This document shows, piece after piece, positions 42,536 to 51,987 of a stretch of 64,000 nucleotides of DNA (its first letter is position 1; every line of letters starts with the position of its first letter). The stretch covers positions 558,001 through 622,000 of the forward strand of contig NZ_CP072829.1 of NCBI RefSeq assembly GCF_017945865.1. The letters run 5' to 3'. The stretch is from Xiamenia xianingshaonis. Its GTDB lineage: Bacteria > Actinomycetota > Coriobacteriia > Coriobacteriales > Eggerthellaceae. A program made the translations under genes and the position numbers. The notes beneath the pieces are model-generated. The model had not been told where the DNA came from. It was given only the letters and a program-made list of their open reading frames with translations, and made no database searches.

Positions 42536-42565
42536 CGGTTCGGTCTGATCTATTCGCTGTTGCAG

Positions 42566-42599
42566 GCGGGGTCGTCCAGAAGGGCGGCCCCGCTTTTTT
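42566..42599. terminator. Terminator between EF-G-like and sortase genes
   Basis: A nine-bp stem (42566-42574 with 42585-42593, one wobble pair) is followed by TTTTTT on the plus strand. It ends the plus-strand transcript and could partly serve the convergent sortase gene. Confidence 0.85.
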
Positions 42600-42612
42600 C
42601 GTCGCCGGCGCG

Positions 42613-43401
42613 TCAGCGGGGCTGCTCCTGTTCAGAGCAGAAGACCGTGCACCGCTCGTCTTCGGGGTTGTAGAGGTAGGAGCACGTGACGAGCGTGACG
42701 GCTCGTTCGGGCACGGCGGCGGCAGGTTCGAGCGCCATATCGGCGCCTTCCAACGCGCTGCGCCACCATGCTGCAAAAGCGTCGTCGCTCGAAAACGCCG
42801 TGACCTTCGCGGCTTGGCGTCCGGCCACCACGTCGGCGGCGCGCACGAGCAGGCGCATCTTCTCATCCGGCGTTTGCAACCAGACCTGTCGATGGACGCT
42901 CGCCCAGACGGGGTCGGCGAAAGACGCTATCGGCGTGAACATGGACCCGTCAAAGCGCAGCGAATGGCCGGAGACGACGGCGTTTTTCGAACGGAAGCCG
43001 TTGCGGGCGCAGGCGGCGTCCAGATAGGGGCAGCCGTAGACCGACCAGTTGCCGTACACGTCGTGGGAGAGGTAGTAGGTTGGGTCGTCGGCCGGAGCCT
43101 GCACGATGGGCAAGTCGACCGAGGTTCCGGGGACGGTCACCCACCCGACGATGGCAGGATTCACGCCTTGCCAGAAGTGCCAGTCGACCTCGGGAAAGTC
43201 GGCATAGGGGTCGAGCGGCGTCGGCGGCGTGCGGGCCAGCGCGGCGGCGGAAGGGCAGGAGGAGGGAGCGGGGTTCGTCGCGAGTTCGCGGCAGGAGCAC
43301 AGCCACAGGGCAGATGCTCCGGCGGCGGCGAACAGCACGGCCGAAAGCGCCACGAGCAGCGCTCCGACCAGCTTTGACGACGTGGGGCGCGGCGTGCGCA
43401 C
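42613..43401 (-). CDS. srtB: Class B sortase
   Basis: The 262-residue transpeptidase has an N-terminal signal-anchor (LVGALLVALSAVLFAAAGASALWL). The catalytic residues are His146 (VVSGHSLRF), Cys240 (TLVTCSY) and Arg250 (PEDERCTVF), with class B spacing and the ILxTC-like TLVTC. It starts at a GTG with AGGAG upstream, 56 bp after the giant surface-protein gene on the same strand. It is therefore probably dedicated to anchoring or polymerising that protein. Confidence 0.9.
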   Translation of the reverse strand: MRTPRPTSSKLVGALLVALSAVLFAAAGASALWLCSCRELATNPAPSSCPSAAALARTPPTPLDPYADFPEVDWHFWQGVNPAIVGWVTVPGTSVDLPIVQAPADDPTYYLSHDVYGNWSVYGCPYLDAACARNGFRSKNAVVSGHSLRFDGSMFTPIASFADPVWASVHRQVWLQTPDEKMRLLVRAADVVAGRQAAKVTAFSSDDAFAAWWRSALEGADMALEPAAAVPERAVTLVTCSYLYNPEDERCTVFCSEQEQPR

Positions 43402-43457
43402 GGCGTTTCTCCTTTCAGGTCGCCTTGAAACGTTGGCTTGAAGCGCGCAGAGGCGTT

Positions 43458-46400
43458 TTACCGGGTGCGGTCGCCGAGGCGCCTGATGCCGTCTCGGCAG
43501 GCGAGCGCAGCGCTTGTGGCCAGCAGCATCGTCAGCATGGCTGTTGCCAGGGCGGCGGCGCCCGTCTTGTCGTAAGGGGTGGCCTGCGCCGGTTCCGGAG
43601 CACCAGCGCCTGGGCTGGCCGGTACGTCGGGGCCTTTGTCGGGCCTGCCCGATTCCGGCACGCCGGTTTCGCCCAGCACGTCTTGCACCGAGACGGTCTG
43701 GGCCTCGTCGTTCACGTCCGCGTGTGCGGCGACGATTCGGCCGTCGAGCGAAAGGGCCTCGAACGCCACCAGGTCGTGTCCGTCGAGCCCGGCGGTCGAC
43801 AGCGCCATTTCCATGTCGACGGTTCCGCTCGGCTGGTTGGGGACGAACGATTTGCGCGCGGTGACTTCGATGCCGTTGGAGATGACGGGATGCCCGGTCT
43901 CCTTGTCGACAAGCGTTCCGGCAAGCACGTATTCGCGTCCGGGCACGACGTTTTCATAACTCACTTCGTCAACGATGCGGACCCATTCGCTTCTGGCGAG
44001 AAACTGGTCGCTGTCGGAAGCGTCTTTCGCGTTGGTGAAGATCGCGGGGGCCATCACCGTGACGGTTTGGGCCTGGTCGTCCAGATCTTCGTGGACGGTG
44101 ATGACGGCGCCTTCGCGCAGCAGCTTTTCAAAGACGACGATCTGTCGGTCGTTTTGGCCCGAACAGTCGAACTCGAAGGCGACCTCGACGGAGCCGGTCG
44201 CTTTTGCGGGGATGAAGGCGACCTCGGCCGTTACGGCGTTGCCCGCGGCGTCGGCGTAGGGCTTGCCGGTCGCCTTGTCCATGAGCAGGCCCGATGCCGT
44301 GTATTCTTTGCCAGGCACGAGTCCTTCGTAAGACAGCGTGTCGATGATTCTCGCCTTGGAGTCCGCTGCCGTTTGCTTGTCGTTGTCGGCGGCGTCTTTG
44401 GCGCTCGTTGCGATCCGAGGCGATGCGACCGTGACGGTTTGTGCTTCATCGTCGAGGTCTTCGTGCTTTGCGATGACCTTTTCAGTCAACAAAAGCTTTT
44501 CGAAGGCGACGAGCGACGCCCCGCCCAACATGCTGGCGTCGAAGCGGAATTCGAGCCGTTCGGTGCCTGAGGGCACGTGCGGCCTGAAGGTCTTGGTTGC
44601 GCTCACGGGCTTGCCGTCCGCCCCGATGAGCGGCTCGCCGGTCGCTTTATGCACGAGCAGGCCCGATACCGTGTACTCCTTGTCGGGCACGAGGCCGTCG
44701 TAGGCTACGGTGTCGACAACGACGGCTTCGGGGTCGGCGGTGACGAGCTTGTCTCCGTCTGCGCCGTCGGCTGCCGTCGTTTGGATTTCCAGCGCCGCCA
44801 CCTCGACCGTCTGCCCGGCGTCGTCAAGATCGGCGTGCGCTGCCACCTCGACGCCGTCTTTTGCGAGCGATTCAAACGCCACGACCTCCTGACCGCCCAG
44901 ATCCGTTGCGTCGAAGGCCAGGTCAAGCTGCATTTCTCCTTCGGGAAACACCGGTTTGAACGTCTTTGTCGCGCGGACGGGGTTGCCCTCGTCGTTGACC
45001 AGGGGCTCGCCGGTCGCTTTCAGCATAAGCGTGCCGGCGAGCTCGTACTGTGCGCCCGGCACGAGGCCGGCATAGGCAACCGTGTCGGTTATCAGGGCGT
45101 TTGCACCGGGCGACACCGCTTTGTCGCCGTCGAGCGCGTCGATGGCGGTCGTGGCGACGGACGGCTTTTCCACCTCGACCGTCTGCCCTGCGTCGTCGAG
45201 GTCGGCGTGCGCCGCCACTTCGGCGCCGTCTTGCAGCATCGTTTCGAAGACGACCAGGCGCTCACCGGCGACATCGGTCGCATCGAAGTCGAATGAAAGC
45301 TCTATCTCGCCGTTTGGCAGCTGGGGTGTGAAGGCCCGTCCGGCTGCGACAGGGCTTCCCTCGGCGTCGAGCAGCGGCTTTCCGGTCGATGCGACCATCA
45401 CCTGGCCGCGGACGACGTATTCGGCGCCTGGCACGAGGCCGGCGTACGACACCCGATCGACGATGGACGCCCCCGGTCCGGCCGAGACGGCTTTGTCTCC
45501 GTCGGCTGCATCGGTCGCAGACGTGCCCACCTCGGCGTTTGCGACGGCGACCGTCTGGTTTTCGTTGTCGAGGTCGGCGTGGGCCGCCACTTCGACGCCG
45601 TCGCGCGAAAGCGTTTCGAAAACGACCACGCTGTCTGAGGCGAGGTCTGTCGCGTCGAAGGGAATCTCAACGTCGACGGACCCCTTGCTTTCGTCGGGCG
45701 TGAAGTCCTTGCTTGCGCAAACCGCCTTGCCGTCGGCGCCTTCGACTGGCCTTCCGCTCGATTTGACGGCGAGCGTCGCTTCGAGGCGGTATTCCTTGTC
45801 CGGCACGAGGCCTTTGTAAGACACCGTGTCAACGACGATTGCCGCAGGTCCCGCCGCCACCAGCTTGTCTTCGTCGGCGCCGTCGCGGGCGGTCGTCTCT
45901 ATGGCGACGCCGGTGACGACGACGGTCTGGGATTTGTCGTTGATGTCTGCGTGCGTCGCCAGATCGATGCCATCCTGCGACAGCGTTTCGAACGCGACGA
46001 CCTCTTCCCCGGCAAGCTTGCCCGCGTTGAACGCGAAGAGCAGGTCCACTTCTCCGGATTCGTCCTCGGCGACGAACTCCGTTTTGGCCATGACGGCAAG
46101 GCCGCTTTCGTCGCGCACCGGCTCTCCGGTCGACTTGCACATGAGCGTGCCGGCCACCGCATAGGTTTTGCCGGGGACGAGATTTCGGTACGACACCGTG
46201 TCGAGCACTTCGGCCTGCGCGTCTGCGGCGATCTTCTTGTCTCCGTCGGCGGCGTCGGTCGCCTTGGTGCCGATCCTGGGCGCGTCGACGCGCACGGTTT
46301 GGGCGCCGTCTTCAATGTCTTTGTGCTCGGCCAGGGGCTTTGCGCCGGGCTTGGGGTTGCCTTCGGCGTCGACGTCGCTTGCCAGGTAGAGCTCTTCGAA

Positions 46401-49400
46401 GACGGTCGTCTGCGCTTTGGCGATCACGGTCGAATCGAAGGAGAACGCCATGTTCACGAGCCCGTTTTTCGAGGCAGGCGTGAAGCGTGCGGAAGACGTG
46501 CCCTTCGAGGCCTCCTCTCCGTCGAAGACCGGGACGGCGGTGCCGTCGTCGCCCTTTTTCATGAGCGTGCCGACGAGCGCGTATTCGCGTCCGGGGACGA
46601 GCGACGTGTGGCTCACCGTGTCGATGATGCCGCCCGTCGTGTCGGCGTGCATGACCTTGTTGCCGTCGGCGGCGTCGGCGGCTTGCGTGCCGATCTCGGG
46701 GGTTCCATCGCCGTTTTCCGCGTCTTCGAGCGTGCCCAGGTTGATGTAGTGCTTGTCGCGGTAGATGTGGATGTTCTTGACGGTGATCAGGTCGTATCCG
46801 ACGGTCGCTTCGCAGGGCAGCTCTTCGAGCGTGTACCAGTCGTAGGGAAGGGCGCCCGCGTCGTCTATGACTGGCACGGTCCAGCCTTCGCTTGTCAGCC
46901 CGAACCACGTGCCGCGATGGGATCGGTACCCCGTTTCCGTGTCGTCGTTGGCGTTGGTCTCGAAGGAGTGCGCCGCCCATTCGGCATGGGTGGAAGCCTC
47001 GCCGTTGGCGTCGGTGACCAGGATGTGGCGCTCGCCGGTCGTCTGGCTGATGAGCGCGAAGGGCACGCCCGCAAGCCGTTTCATGTCGGGCGCTCCCACC
47101 TTCACGAGCTGCAAGTCGCCGCGCATGACCTGGTTGCGCCAGGACTTCGTGTTGTCCGAGGCCGCCTGGTCGTAGGTCTCGTCGCTCCAGGTGGCGTCCA
47201 CTTCGCCTTCGGTGCGGATGCGGAAGCGGCGCTGCGCTCCGTCGAGCATCAGGTAGCCTTCTCCCGGCGCGACCTCGGCGATGTCGTAGGTGCCGTAGGG
47301 CAGCGCTTTGCCTTCGGTCTTCGCGATGCCGTCGGCGCCGGCGTATATCGTGGCGCACACCTCGCCCGGCTCGTAGGGCACGCCGTCCACGATGACGCGG
47401 TTTTCGCTGCGGTTCGTGATCTCGAAGGCCGTTTTCTCCAGCTTTGCCCCGCCGAGCGGAGTTAGCAGGTACGATTCGTTGTCGCGCTTGTGGACGAGCA
47501 CGTCTCCGCGCACGACCATGTTCTTGTAACGCTCGCCGTCGACGGTGCCGTCTTTATGGAAGGGCTGGTAGACGACGCCGTCTTGGCGCACCTCGACCGT
47601 GCGCACAGACGTGTCGGTGAGGTTGTAGGTGTCGTTGGTCGCCGATTCGTACACCTCGTAGGTGCCGAAAGGCAGGCAGTCGGCCGCCGTTTTCGCGTAG
47701 CCGTCTTTGTTCGTGGTGATCCGCTTGACCACGTCTCCCGGCTGGTAGAGGCGCCCTTCGACGAACACCGGGGCTGCCGAGACGTTCTTGATGTCAAAGA
47801 CGATGCCGGAGAGCCACGCATCGCCCTGGGGCAGGTTGTCGTCGCTTTCGACGTCCACCTTCCACAGTTCGACGCCGCCGCGCCACACCTTGTTGAAAAA
47901 CGAGCTGCTGCCGGAAAACGGCGTGACGATTCTTTTGTCCTCGCGGATCGTGAACGTGCGGGCCGCGCCGTCGGTCAGGTGATACCCCGTGCTCGCGGCG
48001 ATTTCTTGGATGTCGTAGGTGCCGAACGGCAGCGTTTGAGTTCCGGTCGAGGCGTTGCCGTCCTCGTCGGTCGCGATCGTCGCCACAACGCGGCCGGGCG
48101 CGTATTCGATGCCGTCGACGACGACGCTTCGGGCGGACCGGTTCGTGATGCGAAACACCGTGCCGGCGAGCGTCGCATCGCCTTGCGGGGCGTTTTGCCG
48201 GGTGTCGAAATCGCGCTTCTGCACGGCTGCGCCGCCGCGCACGACCTGGTTTCGATAGTCCCCGCCCGCTTCGCACGGGGCTGCGACCTGGCCGTCGGCG
48301 GTGATTGAGAACGTGAGCGCCTTGCCGTCGGTCAGGCGGTAGCTGCCGTTCGTCGCCGACTCGCGTATCTCGTACGTGCCGATGGGCAGCGATTCGCCGC
48401 CGGTCGTCGCTGTGCCGGACGCGTCGGTCTCGATCGTCTTGACGTCTTCGTCGACGGCGAACTCGGTTCCGTCCACCACCACGCTGTGCGCCGATTTGTT
48501 AGTTATGGTGAACTCTATGCCGGCAAGGCTTGCGTCGCCCTGCGGCTCGCGCCGCTTCGTCTGGGCGTCGGCTTTGCAGACCTTGACCCCGCCGCGCTCC
48601 ACCTTATTGAAGAAGGCGTCGTCGCCGGCGAAAGGCTCGACGACCGTCAGGTCTTCGGCGATGGCGAAGGAGCGGGGCGCTCCGTCGGTCAGGCGGTAGC
48701 CTGTGGGTGCTTCCACTTCGCGGATTTCGTAGGCGCCGCAGGGCAACAGGTTTTCGGCGGTGGCGGCGGCTCCGGCTTCGTCGGTCGTCATCGTGGCGAC
48801 GATCTGCCCCGGAGCGTATTCGACGCCTTCGACGACGACGCTTTGGGCAGACCGGTTCGTGATCGTGAAGACGGTGCCTTCGAGGACGGCATTGCCCTGC
48901 GGCTCGCTGCGGCGCGTGTCGAAGTCCCGCTTCTCAAGCGCCACGCCGCCGCGCACGACCTCGTCTTTGAACGGGCCTGTGCCTCCTGCGCGGGGCGCGC
49001 TTTCCGCTTTGCCGCCTTCGGACGTCGGGGCGGCGCTCGCGGCTTCGGTTTCGGCCGCAGCCGCCGCAGCCGCCGCCACGTTCGGCGCGCAGGCGTTGAC
49101 CACCTCTCCCTGGATGCGGATCGAGACGGTGCGCGTCGTGGCGTCGGTGGGGCGGTACGTGTCGTTCGTGGCGGACTCGCTGATTTCATAGGTGCCGTAA
49201 GGCAGGCAGTTCGCCGGGGTCGCGGCGACTCCTGACGCGTTGGTCGCGATGGTCTTCACGACGGCGTCGACCGGATATTCCGTCCCTTCGACCGTGACCG
49301 GGTGTTTTGATACGTTTTTGATCTCAAATTTGATGCCGGCGAGGCTTGCCTGGCCCTGCGGAACGGGCCGCCCCGTTTCGGCGTCGACCTTCAGCACCGA

Positions 49401-51524
49401 CACGCCGCCGGTGATCGGCGCATCGGCGAAATCGAGCCTGAGGGCGGCGCTCGCGCTGCCGAACTGCGCCGTTGCCTTCGTGCCTGCCGCCTGCGCGCCG
49501 TTGGCCGCCACCTTGACGAGCTTCTTGCCCGTGGCGCGGACGTAGCCGGTCGGCGCCTTCGTCTCTTCGACGACATAGCAGCCGATCGGCCAGTACGGCT
49601 TCGTTCCGTGCAGGTACAGCGGGCTGCCGGACACCGGCTTGCTCGCGTCGACGCGCCCGCCGGCGTCGGTGGCGAAGACCCATGACGCGGCCAGGTGCCT
49701 GCTTTCAACCTGTGTGATCGTCGCTGCGTCGAATCCTGCGAACAGCGCGGGGCTGACGTCGTAGTAGGAGATGCGGAATTCTCCGCCCTCGAGCGTCGCG
49801 TCGCCGGCGGCCTGCGGCTTGCCGGTCGGTTGGTCGATCTTTTGCAGCACGGCTTGCGGTTCGAAGTACTGCACCTGGTCGGAGAACGTCGCGGCGTTGT
49901 CGCGGTCGGCCCGCGCGTCGATGCGCTTTGCCTCGGAGCTCGCGTTGAAGCCGGGCGGCGCTTTGATCTCCTTGACCCAGTAGGTGCCTGCGGGCAGCCA
50001 CTTGCTTTCGGCGATGGCCCGCTCGCGGTAGTCGTAGACCTGGTCGGCGGGCCGATAGGCCCCGCGCGGGTCTTTCGTGACCATCTCGTCGACCTTGTTC
50101 GTGCAGCCCGCGTCCGTGTAGACGCCGAAGGCAGCGCCTCCGAGCGCATAGGCGCCGTTGCCGTTCGTCCATGCTTCGGCCGAGGTTTTCCATACCTTCA
50201 CGTAGGTTTCGGGCTCGTTGAAAAACGACAGGTAGCCCGAACGGCTTTCGTCGTCGCGGACGGTGATCGACTTGATGCCGGTCGACAGGGAATACCCCCT
50301 GGGCGCTTGGATTTCTTTGACGTAGTAGGTTCCGGGATCGAGCCAGGCGGTTTCGGCCAGCGACCAGGCCTGCGGGTCTTCGTGGCGGCTCGGCTCGTGC
50401 GAGGCGTTCGTGAAGTCGCTCGTCGTCGTGAGCGTCTGCACGAGGTCTGTGCAGGCTGCGTCGGAATAGACGCCGAACTTCGCTTTGGCCAGGCTGTAGT
50501 GGGCGTCGACGGTGACCGCCTTGTCCCGCGTCGACCCTTTCCACACCTCGAACCAGCCGCGCGGCTCGTGGAGGCGCCAGGTGGCGTAGACCTTCTGCTT
50601 GCCGATGGAGGCCTGGTCCCAGTCGCCGTAGGCGCCGCCGTTGTTGACCAGCAGAAAGAACGTCGCGGTGTAGTACTGCCCGTCGTCGCTCCAGTACGAC
50701 TCGTTTTCCAGCAGGCAGAGCCGGGCGGGGCGCGGGTTGGCATAGTCGCGCACCGTGTAGTTGTTGCCTTGACAGCAGTGCGTCCTGCCCGTCGAGGCGA
50801 GGCCTGTGTAGATAAGGCCTCGGGAGTTCGTCTCGCTCGTCAGTTCGTAGCGATAGTCCGAAATGCCCCAGCCGGGGAAGTTGCCGCCGGTGCTCGGGTC
50901 GTTCACGAACATATAGTAGGCGTCGGTGAGGTTGGGCGGATAGGAGAACGGCGGGCTTCCGGAAAGTTCGGCGGTGAGGGTCACCCGCAGCGTCAGGCCC
51001 GCCAGCTTGTAGGACTGGGTGTTGGGGTCCCACGTGAAGTCGCCGTTTTCGAAGGGGTTGCCGATGTTGTAGCTGAGCGCATAGACCGACGGGCTGCTGT
51101 ACGCCCGGGGGCTTCGCAGGGCGACGGCCAGGTTTTCCTTGAAAGGGTTTTCCATGCCTTCGAGGGGATCTGCGGGGTCGTCGGGGCAGGTGTGCTGGGA
51201 AAACGCCGGCGCGCTTGCCCGCATCGGATCGATGCCGCCCTCGGCCCATGCCGGCGCGTTGCCGAACGGGTTGAAGGGCAGCACCGACGCGTCGTCGGTC
51301 CTCAAGTACTCGGCCCACAGCTCGTCCAAGTCGGCGGGCGCCTCGGCTGCGTCGTCGGCACGAGCGTCGGCGGTCTGCGCGGCGTCGGCGGCCGGCTCTG
51401 CCGCGGGCGCATCTGCGAACGCCGCCGCTACGACCGGCTCTGCGAAAAGCGTCGCCGCTGCAAGTGCTGTCGCCGCGAGCGCTGCCGCGATCGCGCTTGC
51501 AAGCCTGCGCGTGGTCTTTCTCAT
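43458..51524 (-). CDS. Giant sortase-anchored surface protein with SpaA/Cna-B and VaFE (T-Q ester) repeats
   Basis: The 2,688-residue secreted protein starts MRKTTRRLASAI with an Ala-rich signal peptide (to about 37) and has AGGAGAC upstream. The first 320 residues are a head domain with THCCQG and many aromatics. About ten SpaA/Cna-B-like domains follow (about 320-1600), several as near repeats with RGGV..KRDFDTR and ITNRSA..VVV motifs. Eight VaFE repeats of about 122 residues come next (about 1605-2620), each with DTVSY..LVPG.EY, TG.P and VAFE, ending AH.D..D..QTV. The Lys/Asn pairs and Thr/Gln pairs expected to form isopeptide and ester bonds can be seen. The tail is TPYDKTG (2649-2655), a hydrophobic helix, then RDGIRRLGDRTR. 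It is a likely adhesin or pilus-like stalk. Confidence 0.92.
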   Translation of the reverse strand: MRKTTRRLASAIAAALAATALAAATLFAEPVVAAAFADAPAAEPAADAAQTADARADDAAEAPADLDELWAEYLRTDDASVLPFNPFGNAPAWAEGGIDPMRASAPAFSQHTCPDDPADPLEGMENPFKENLAVALRSPRAYSSPSVYALSYNIGNPFENGDFTWDPNTQSYKLAGLTLRVTLTAELSGSPPFSYPPNLTDAYYMFVNDPSTGGNFPGWGISDYRYELTSETNSRGLIYTGLASTGRTHCCQGNNYTVRDYANPRPARLCLLENESYWSDDGQYYTATFFLLVNNGGAYGDWDQASIGKQKVYATWRLHEPRGWFEVWKGSTRDKAVTVDAHYSLAKAKFGVYSDAACTDLVQTLTTTSDFTNASHEPSRHEDPQAWSLAETAWLDPGTYYVKEIQAPRGYSLSTGIKSITVRDDESRSGYLSFFNEPETYVKVWKTSAEAWTNGNGAYALGGAAFGVYTDAGCTNKVDEMVTKDPRGAYRPADQVYDYRERAIAESKWLPAGTYWVKEIKAPPGFNASSEAKRIDARADRDNAATFSDQVQYFEPQAVLQKIDQPTGKPQAAGDATLEGGEFRISYYDVSPALFAGFDAATITQVESRHLAASWVFATDAGGRVDASKPVSGSPLYLHGTKPYWPIGCYVVEETKAPTGYVRATGKKLVKVAANGAQAAGTKATAQFGSASAALRLDFADAPITGGVSVLKVDAETGRPVPQGQASLAGIKFEIKNVSKHPVTVEGTEYPVDAVVKTIATNASGVAATPANCLPYGTYEISESATNDTYRPTDATTRTVSIRIQGEVVNACAPNVAAAAAAAAETEAASAAPTSEGGKAESAPRAGGTGPFKDEVVRGGVALEKRDFDTRRSEPQGNAVLEGTVFTITNRSAQSVVVEGVEYAPGQIVATMTTDEAGAAATAENLLPCGAYEIREVEAPTGYRLTDGAPRSFAIAEDLTVVEPFAGDDAFFNKVERGGVKVCKADAQTKRREPQGDASLAGIEFTITNKSAHSVVVDGTEFAVDEDVKTIETDASGTATTGGESLPIGTYEIRESATNGSYRLTDGKALTFSITADGQVAAPCEAGGDYRNQVVRGGAAVQKRDFDTRQNAPQGDATLAGTVFRITNRSARSVVVDGIEYAPGRVVATIATDEDGNASTGTQTLPFGTYDIQEIAASTGYHLTDGAARTFTIREDKRIVTPFSGSSSFFNKVWRGGVELWKVDVESDDNLPQGDAWLSGIVFDIKNVSAAPVFVEGRLYQPGDVVKRITTNKDGYAKTAADCLPFGTYEVYESATNDTYNLTDTSVRTVEVRQDGVVYQPFHKDGTVDGERYKNMVVRGDVLVHKRDNESYLLTPLGGAKLEKTAFEITNRSENRVIVDGVPYEPGEVCATIYAGADGIAKTEGKALPYGTYDIAEVAPGEGYLMLDGAQRRFRIRTEGEVDATWSDETYDQAASDNTKSWRNQVMRGDLQLVKVGAPDMKRLAGVPFALISQTTGERHILVTDANGEASTHAEWAAHSFETNANDDTETGYRSHRGTWFGLTSEGWTVPVIDDAGALPYDWYTLEELPCEATVGYDLITVKNIHIYRDKHYINLGTLEDAENGDGTPEIGTQAADAADGNKVMHADTTGGIIDTVSHTSLVPGREYALVGTLMKKGDDGTAVPVFDGEEASKGTSSARFTPASKNGLVNMAFSFDSTVIAKAQTTVFEELYLASDVDAEGNPKPGAKPLAEHKDIEDGAQTVRVDAPRIGTKATDAADGDKKIAADAQAEVLDTVSYRNLVPGKTYAVAGTLMCKSTGEPVRDESGLAVMAKTEFVAEDESGEVDLLFAFNAGKLAGEEVVAFETLSQDGIDLATHADINDKSQTVVVTGVAIETTARDGADEDKLVAAGPAAIVVDTVSYKGLVPDKEYRLEATLAVKSSGRPVEGADGKAVCASKDFTPDESKGSVDVEIPFDATDLASDSVVVFETLSRDGVEVAAHADLDNENQTVAVANAEVGTSATDAADGDKAVSAGPGASIVDRVSYAGLVPGAEYVVRGQVMVASTGKPLLDAEGSPVAAGRAFTPQLPNGEIELSFDFDATDVAGERLVVFETMLQDGAEVAAHADLDDAGQTVEVEKPSVATTAIDALDGDKAVSPGANALITDTVAYAGLVPGAQYELAGTLMLKATGEPLVNDEGNPVRATKTFKPVFPEGEMQLDLAFDATDLGGQEVVAFESLAKDGVEVAAHADLDDAGQTVEVAALEIQTTAADGADGDKLVTADPEAVVVDTVAYDGLVPDKEYTVSGLLVHKATGEPLIGADGKPVSATKTFRPHVPSGTERLEFRFDASMLGGASLVAFEKLLLTEKVIAKHEDLDDEAQTVTVASPRIATSAKDAADNDKQTAADSKARIIDTLSYEGLVPGKEYTASGLLMDKATGKPYADAAGNAVTAEVAFIPAKATGSVEVAFEFDCSGQNDRQIVVFEKLLREGAVITVHEDLDDQAQTVTVMAPAIFTNAKDASDSDQFLARSEWVRIVDEVSYENVVPGREYVLAGTLVDKETGHPVISNGIEVTARKSFVPNQPSGTVDMEMALSTAGLDGHDLVAFEALSLDGRIVAAHADVNDEAQTVSVQDVLGETGVPESGRPDKGPDVPASPGAGAPEPAQATPYDKTGAAALATAMLTMLLATSAALACRDGIRRLGDRTR

Positions 51525-51987
51525 GTCCGTCTCCTGTCTTTGCGCCGCCTCGCCCGCCGTGCCGCCTTTTTGCGTCGGTGGCGCGTCGGTGGCCGCATCG
51601 TGGGCTGCGGCCAGTCTAGCGCGGGGACCTTTCACGGATTTCACCCAGACCTTGCAAAACGTGCCATCGAATCTCATGCGCTTCGACATGGTTTCTTGCC
51701 GAAATCTCATCGCGCTGCCGCCAAAGCGTGCCAAAACCTCTCGTCGGTCTTGCCGAAGCGACGCCAAAACCTTGCCGGTTTCGACGTTGCTTCTTGCCAG
51801 GCCCGCGCCGCGGCCTCGTGCAAAATCCGAGCGTGTAACCTATCTTTAACAGGGGCGTTTCGTGCAGCGGCTCGCGAGCGGCCCCCGTTTCGGCTACCAT
51901 GGCACGATGTCTGCAACAAACGCGGCTTCGACCAGGGATGTTGCGGGCGTGCAAACAAAGACGGACCCTGGGGAGAAAGGTGCGCGC
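51525..51987. promoter_or_regulatory. Divergent region between the surface-protein gene and glmS, with degenerate direct repeats
   Basis: No gene is seen in 463 bp. The minus-strand frame of the surface protein stays open here, but without a signal or ribosome-site logic. TTCGACATGGTTTCTTGCC (51682-51700) recurs as TTCGACGTTGCTTCTTGCC (51780-51798), 16 of 19 identical. GCCAAAACCT occurs at 51730-51739 and 51763-51772. A glmS ribozyme core was looked for and not recognised. Confidence 0.45.

Follow-up and report, generated by a model that had tools for sequence, protein, structure and literature searches.

A giant stalk adhesin with a [YF]xKTG sorting signal and an adjoining class B sortase in Xiamenia xianingshaonis

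The genome of Xiamenia xianingshaonis, a single contig of 2.26 Mb, encodes a giant surface protein with an unusual C-terminal sorting signal, and the next gene downstream encodes a sortase. This raises the question of whether the 2 genes form a dedicated pair and, if so, which residues of the signal the sortase recognizes. The locus was studied in a stretch of 64,000 nucleotides (positions 558001-622000 of the contig), which we refer to as the window, and its features are listed in Table 1. The arrangement described in the earlier note, with a protein of 2,688 residues and a class B sortase gene (srtB) 56 bp further downstream on the same strand, agreed with the length of the open reading frame, with the gene layout and, for the sortase class, with the modelled fold. 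The srtB gene has a GTG start codon and a good Shine-Dalgarno sequence of its own. The nearest named relative at the locus was Slackia sp. ZJ119, for which the sequence identity of the sortase domain was 92%.

Table 1. Features of the adhesin and sortase locus, in window coordinates
Feature	Coordinates	Strand	Basis or remark
Adhesin gene, 2,688 aa	43458..51524	-	ATG at 51524, stop at 43458
Signal peptide region, residues 1-34	51423..51524	-	By eye on the sequence
N-terminal putative binding domain, residues 149-319	50568..51080	-	Invariant residues in 8 homologues; Pfam-negative
Ten CnaB/SpaA-type domains, residues about 322-1600	46725..50561	-	Isopeptide-triad Lys and Glu present in each
Eight T-Q ester-bond (VaFE) domains	43686..46700	-	Thr, Asp, Glu, His, Gln in 8/8
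YDKTG pentamer of the sorting signal (P4 Tyr through P1' Gly), residues 2651-2655	43560..43574	-	Translated sequence
Remainder of the sorting signal: hydrophobic stretch, Arg-rich tail	43461..43559	-	Sequence
Class B sortase gene, 262 aa	42613..43401	-	His146, Cys240, Arg250; Val238 at the P4-contact position
Hairpin resembling a terminator, between srtB and the convergently oriented EF-G-like gene	42564..42595	.	Such matches not above chance expectation

The stalk of the adhesin is composed of 2 kinds of domains. Eight T-Q ester-bond domains were identified with Pfam (PF18202, E = 2e-234) and 8 VaFE repeats with NCBIfam, and each of these domains has retained all 5 of the characteristic columns. 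For the other kind, Pfam recovered 8 SpaA stretches (PF17802, E = 4e-84), while a listing of the Lys- and Glu-strand motifs yielded 10 CnaB/SpaA-type domains, with the Glu strands located at residues 399, 514, 649, 778, 931, 1050, 1169, 1288, 1412, and 1563. The Asn or Asp that completes the triad was seen in 9 of these 10 domains. The counts of about 10 SpaA/Cna-B-like and 8 VaFE domains, which had previously been made by eye, were thereby upheld. The conserved residues predict that the adhesin contains both Lys-Asn/Asp isopeptide bonds and Thr-Gln ester bonds. A copy of the gene in a genus-mate genome (G002) encodes a protein that is 93% identical across all 2,688 residues and aligns to it without a gap, which indicates that the gene is intact and has been maintained.

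Stalk adhesins with ester and isopeptide bonds are already known (PMC10619420). The TIE adhesins (Mobiluncus, Cpe0147, and SaTIE) and VaFE proteins have in common with the window protein a stalk of Ig-like domains with ester and isopeptide cross-links, which for the window protein are predicted (PMC10619420). However, the Mobiluncus adhesins are anchored through LPxTG, whereas the window protein ends in a YDKTG signal, and the window protein contains no recognizable thioester domain, although a TED_2 thioester domain was found in a related adhesin at locus L057.

The C-terminus of the adhesin reads ATPYDKTG-AAALATAMLTMLLATSAALA-CRDGIRRLGDRTR. It has the 3 parts of a normal sorting signal, a motif followed by a hydrophobic helix and a basic tail, and departs from it only in the motif, where Tyr-Asp occupies the P4-P3 positions at which LPxTG has Leu-Pro. 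The earlier note had read the motif as a noncanonical TPYDKTG. The signal is indeed noncanonical, but the part of it that lines up with LPxTG is the pentamer YDKTG, and conservation does not extend to the TP ahead of it. As a seven-residue motif TPYDKTG was rejected, since the corresponding segments in the relatives were GYPKTG, GTYGKTG, GYDKTG, PYAKTG, SFFGKTG, and PFDKTG. The residues ahead of the pentamer thus vary while the pentamer itself is conserved, and the motif is more appropriately written as [YF]xKTG. A pattern search of the window genome retrieved 25 DNA matches encoding [YF]xKTG, among which the adhesin provided the only sorting signal.

The sortase is class B by structure, as judged from a predicted model. 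Its score against the class B model TIGR03064 (E = 7e-22, 77.8 bits) was below the equivalog cut-off of 153.75 bits, so that it is related to this model without being an equivalog. The best matches among solved structures were SrtBs. The AlphaFold model (pLDDT 91.8) gave Z-scores of 18 to 23.4 to the class B structures listed and of at most 12.6 to those of classes A, C, and E, and its beta6-beta7 loop contains a helix (residues 146-159) between strands 121-133 and 174-180. The residues His146, Cys240, and Arg250 were invariant in 19 relatives. The class B sortases retrieved in a search of plasmids were all distant, with less than 40% identity.

To what extent the signal and the sortase occur together was studied in related genomes. 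A survey for the PF18202 domain was positive in 76 of the 119 genomes examined from the family, and 60 further loci were taken on the presence of a T-Q domain alone. At each of these the C-terminus and the neighbouring genes were read, and the surroundings of each T-Q gene were searched with profiles for class B and class C sortases; for L073 and L105, the signal was determined manually. The T-Q proteins were split into 2 groups, those with [Y/F/H]-x-K-[T/A]-G and those with L-x-x-T-G or a similar motif and an Asp directly after it. In the loci selected for VaFE domains, a class B sortase gene on the same strand adjoined all 26 genes of the first group but none of the 29 genes of the second (Fisher p = 3e-16), a p-value that overstates the independence of the observations because the sampled bacteria are related through shared ancestry and mobile copies. 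When the proteins were collapsed into 23 clusters at 60% C-terminal identity, the contrast was 8/8 versus 0/15 (p = 2e-6). When all loci were considered, the only one that fell beyond the distance limits was L073, in which the sortase gene is located about 3 kb upstream within the same multi-substrate locus. Across all loci, the 40 signals of the aromatic group contained Tyr (37), Phe (2), or His (1) at P4, and Pro (18), Asp (12), Ala (7), Gly (2), or Glu (1) at P3, followed by Lys at P2 in every case and by Thr (39) or Ala (1) at P1.

A tree was inferred from 121 class B sortases obtained from the fetched loci and from a scan of named genomes; the collection was scanned with a closer alignment of 7 sequences, the first alignment having been too diverse. 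Fifty-six of the 57 sortases with aromatic-signal neighbours were placed in a single clade of 66 members (support 100/99, stem length 0.67), which consisted mostly of Coriobacteriia but also included a member from Pseudoflavonifractor and one from Lachnospiraceae. Outside the clade, the neighbouring proteins had TPQTG, PAKTG, LPKTG, or PPKTG signals, or no recognized signal. About half a dozen clade members lacked a recognized neighbour signal, either because they were located at contig ends or because the neighbour was unclear. Two others adjoined signals with Ile or Leu at P4 (IDKTG and LDKTG), which implies that an aromatic P4 residue is the rule but not an absolute one. A YTQTG sequence beside the L215 sortase is probably a false positive.

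The dedicated SrtB-signal pair that had been proposed thus withstood both the survey (26/26 versus 0/29) and the tree (56/57), and among the VaFE-selected loci the co-occurrence search uncovered no motif outside the company of the clade. These results also bear on another reading, namely that YDKTG has drifted from LPxTG and that the adhesin is anchored by any sortase in the cell, with SrtB being incidental or acting on some other substrate. The genome does encode 2 further sortase-like proteins, and LxxTG-D adhesins with T-Q domains do occur without a local class B sortase. Against this, the motif tracks the neighbouring sortase with zero exceptions among the VaFE-selected loci, the P2 Lys is invariant in the 40 signals and the partner enzymes group in a single clade, and we regard drift from LPxTG as very improbable.

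The sortases of the clade also differ from the others at 2 positions. In Bacillus anthracis SrtB, Ser231, which is located two residues before the catalytic Cys, has been modelled to contact the P4-Asn, and replacement of this residue with Ala inactivates the enzyme (PMC11987632). By alignment, the equivalent is residue 238, which inside the clade is Val (35), Cys (14), Thr (9), or Ala (8) and in none of the 66 members Ser, as compared to Ser in 41 of the 55 sortases outside it. The window sortase has Val238 in place of the Ser found in SrtBs of NPxTN and heme-uptake systems. At residue 167, Ala was found in 62 of the 66 clade members, whereas Phe, Tyr, Leu, Trp, or Cys but never Ala was found outside. 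Judging from these alignments, residues 238 and 167 are candidates for a P4 specificity switch.

In addition to the P4 contact, we compared the window pair with other features of characterized class B systems. The fold, the His-Cys-Arg triad, and the long beta6-beta7 loop with its helix are shared with the SrtBs that recognize NPxTN or NPKTG, such as those of Staphylococcus aureus and of B. anthracis, in which the partner is IsdC (PMC11987632). The P2 Lys of the present signal group corresponds to the Lys of NPKTG, SPKTG, and PPKTG. However, the P4 residue is aromatic here and Asn there, and the neighbour is a giant stalk adhesin here and a heme protein there. That a class B enzyme acts on a motif other than NPxTN would not be surprising, since such departures are known for the (S/P)PxTG signal of Clostridioides difficile (PMC5118464), the LPKTS signal of streptococcal AbpA (PMC4974636), and the pilins of group A streptococci (PMC7900414). 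The C. difficile system resembles the window pair in having a class B enzyme, a non-NPxTN signal and a Lys at P2 (PMC5118464), but has Ser or Pro rather than Tyr or Phe at P4, and its enzyme is reported to be the single sortase of the organism, with several substrates (PMC4155245). The AbpA/SrtB locus likewise combines a dedicated class B sortase with one adhesin that has a novel signal (PMC4974636), although AbpA is short and ends in LPKTS with a three-residue tail (AVK), whereas the window protein has YDKTG, a full hydrophobic helix, and a basic tail. A YDKTG-type signal in this role was not encountered in the open-access literature searched. Of the previous suggestion of an undescribed surface-display system, the novelty of the signal stands as judged from this literature, while the pairing of a class B sortase with a non-NPxTN signal was already known. 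We rate the [YF]xKTG signal and its sortase clade as a new sortase-signal pairing on an otherwise familiar type of large adhesin.

It is likely, in our view, that the 2 genes constitute a dedicated module in which a class B sortase of the [YF]xKTG clade anchors the stalk adhesin to the cell wall. The first gene would encode a single-chain fibrillar adhesin with a small, probably binding, N-terminal domain on top of a stalk in which the 10 CnaB/SpaA-type and 8 T-Q domains would be cross-linked by isopeptide and ester bonds, respectively. The second gene would encode a membrane-bound sortase dedicated to this adhesin. In the YDKTG signal bound by this sortase, Tyr would occupy P4 and Lys P2; the enzyme would cut the Thr-Gly bond and link the adhesin to the cross-bridge of the peptidoglycan. 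Both genes would represent a class B clade, mainly of Coriobacteriia with a few Bacillota, that is specialized for [YF]xKTG and kept separate from the LxxTG-D signals found on further T-Q adhesins of this bacterial family. For the window pair, we infer the cleavage, specificity, anchoring, cross-linking, and adhesion, and the neighbour of an adjoining sortase is presumed to be its substrate, proximity being no proof.

The sortase could instead be a pilus polymerase that links copies of the adhesin to one another, or the adhesin to other pilins, into a fibre. Class B sortases polymerize the pilins of group A streptococcal pili (PMC7900414), the SrtB of the AbpA locus both anchors AbpA and builds it into ladders (PMC4974636), the window adhesin contains SpaA domains, and there are 2 or 3 signal-bearing proteins per sortase at loci L066, L073, and L163. 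However, the window locus, like most of its relatives, consists of one surface gene and one sortase gene rather than an operon with several pilins, and a chain of 2,688 residues is already a fibre. Moreover, the locus encodes neither a base pilin nor a second sortase, and the pilus genes of the genome are located elsewhere. Polymerization is therefore an unlikely role for this enzyme as compared to wall anchoring. The pilus genes in question are an ordinary pilus operon with a class C sortase and 2 large pilin-type proteins ending in LPxTG motifs (LPSTG and LPATG; L012 5903-12501). Together with a third sortase-like protein (L013 6131-6883), it limits an earlier remark that the class B enzyme was the only sortase in view, which holds for the 64-kb window but not for the genome. 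The third protein has a lipoprotein-like N-terminus (LPAC) and matched no NCBIfam sortase class. At L073 (4513-18248), a single sortase is accompanied by 3 neighbouring signal-bearing proteins (AYAPTG, SWAKTG, and PYAKTG), which possibly form a multi-component fibre.

Sorting signals are usually sought by regular expressions. Since [YF]xKTG is not among the listed patterns, adhesins of the Eggerthellaceae and their relatives, which are common gut bacteria, would be missed. If the pair works in vitro, protein ligation would gain an orthogonal sortase, and the residues behind P4 specificity in class B sortases could be studied in a clean comparison provided by nature.

Some additional observations were made on the signals. 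The exact PYDKTG pattern was a poor proxy at the DNA level, since 9 of its 18 matches in 298 Coriobacteriia genomes were not intact C-terminal sorting signals, and 6 of these 9 came from a single conserved segment inside a housekeeping-type protein; the other 9 were C-terminal signals, all accompanied by the sortase. In the LxxTG group of T-Q proteins (for example at L117, L131, and L091), Asp directly followed the motif in all cases, as compared to 3 of the 40 aromatic signals, a sequence pattern that suggests that these bacteria follow a second sortase rule as well. Near position 9466 of L061 (counted on the minus strand), a short frame contained the fragment PYDKTGVNLLPLIA, which resembles a decayed sorting signal.

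In 2 genus-mate genomes, the window genome (window positions 42536-51861) and G002, the YDKTG adhesin and srtB occupy the interval flanked by the EF-G-like gene and glmS. At the corresponding site, L143 encodes a T-Q protein of 1,927 amino acids ending in LPQTAD and L225 a different surface protein ending in LAKTQ, and both lack the sortase gene. The interval thus appears to be a slot for alternative surface proteins in the genus. Similar pairs of [YF]xKTG adhesins and sortases recur across genera (L055-L062, L075, L077, L096, L104, L108, and L116), and these look like parts of conjugative elements. At L057, the pair is preceded by genes for a VirB4/TraG-like ATPase and an NlpC/P60-glucosaminidase and followed by type I restriction genes. 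The module might accordingly be the cargo of a mobile element that serves chiefly in mating-pair contact, with the window copy as a fixed remnant, which would fit the repetition of similar loci across genera (L055-L062, L075, L096, and L104) and the thioester-domain adhesin beside conjugation-type genes at L057. Yet the window pair is located in a slot where genus-mates carry other surface proteins, and no conjugation genes were recognized beside it in the part of the window genes that was searched. We consider this mobile-element reading distinctly unlikely, and retain the dedicated anchoring module as the preferred reading.

The N-terminal domain of the adhesin matched no Pfam family, including TED. 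Neither a sequence search of the PDB nor the fold comparisons by Foldseek and VIA-align (best Z = 2.5) yielded a credible match, and there was no obvious common motif in an alignment with TED_2-bearing relatives. In 8 aligned homologues, Cys250, Gln252, and Asp303-Gln304 were invariant. It is a guess, made from these residues, that the domain contains a Cys-Gln thioester as in the TED adhesins. The broader proposal, that class B sortases with an aromatic P4 pocket have co-evolved with [YF]xKTG adhesins and that the window adhesin bears a new reactive binding domain of the Cys-Gln (thioester) type, is tentative and rather doubtful; if true, each end of the adhesin would have a covalent attachment, one made to the wall by SrtB and the other to its target by the N-terminal domain. 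The domain family is rare, being present in 8 of the 298 genomes of the class with the window genome included, and its members were found on proteins with both types of anchor, as exemplified by L161 (SFGKTG) and L121 (ITKTGD).
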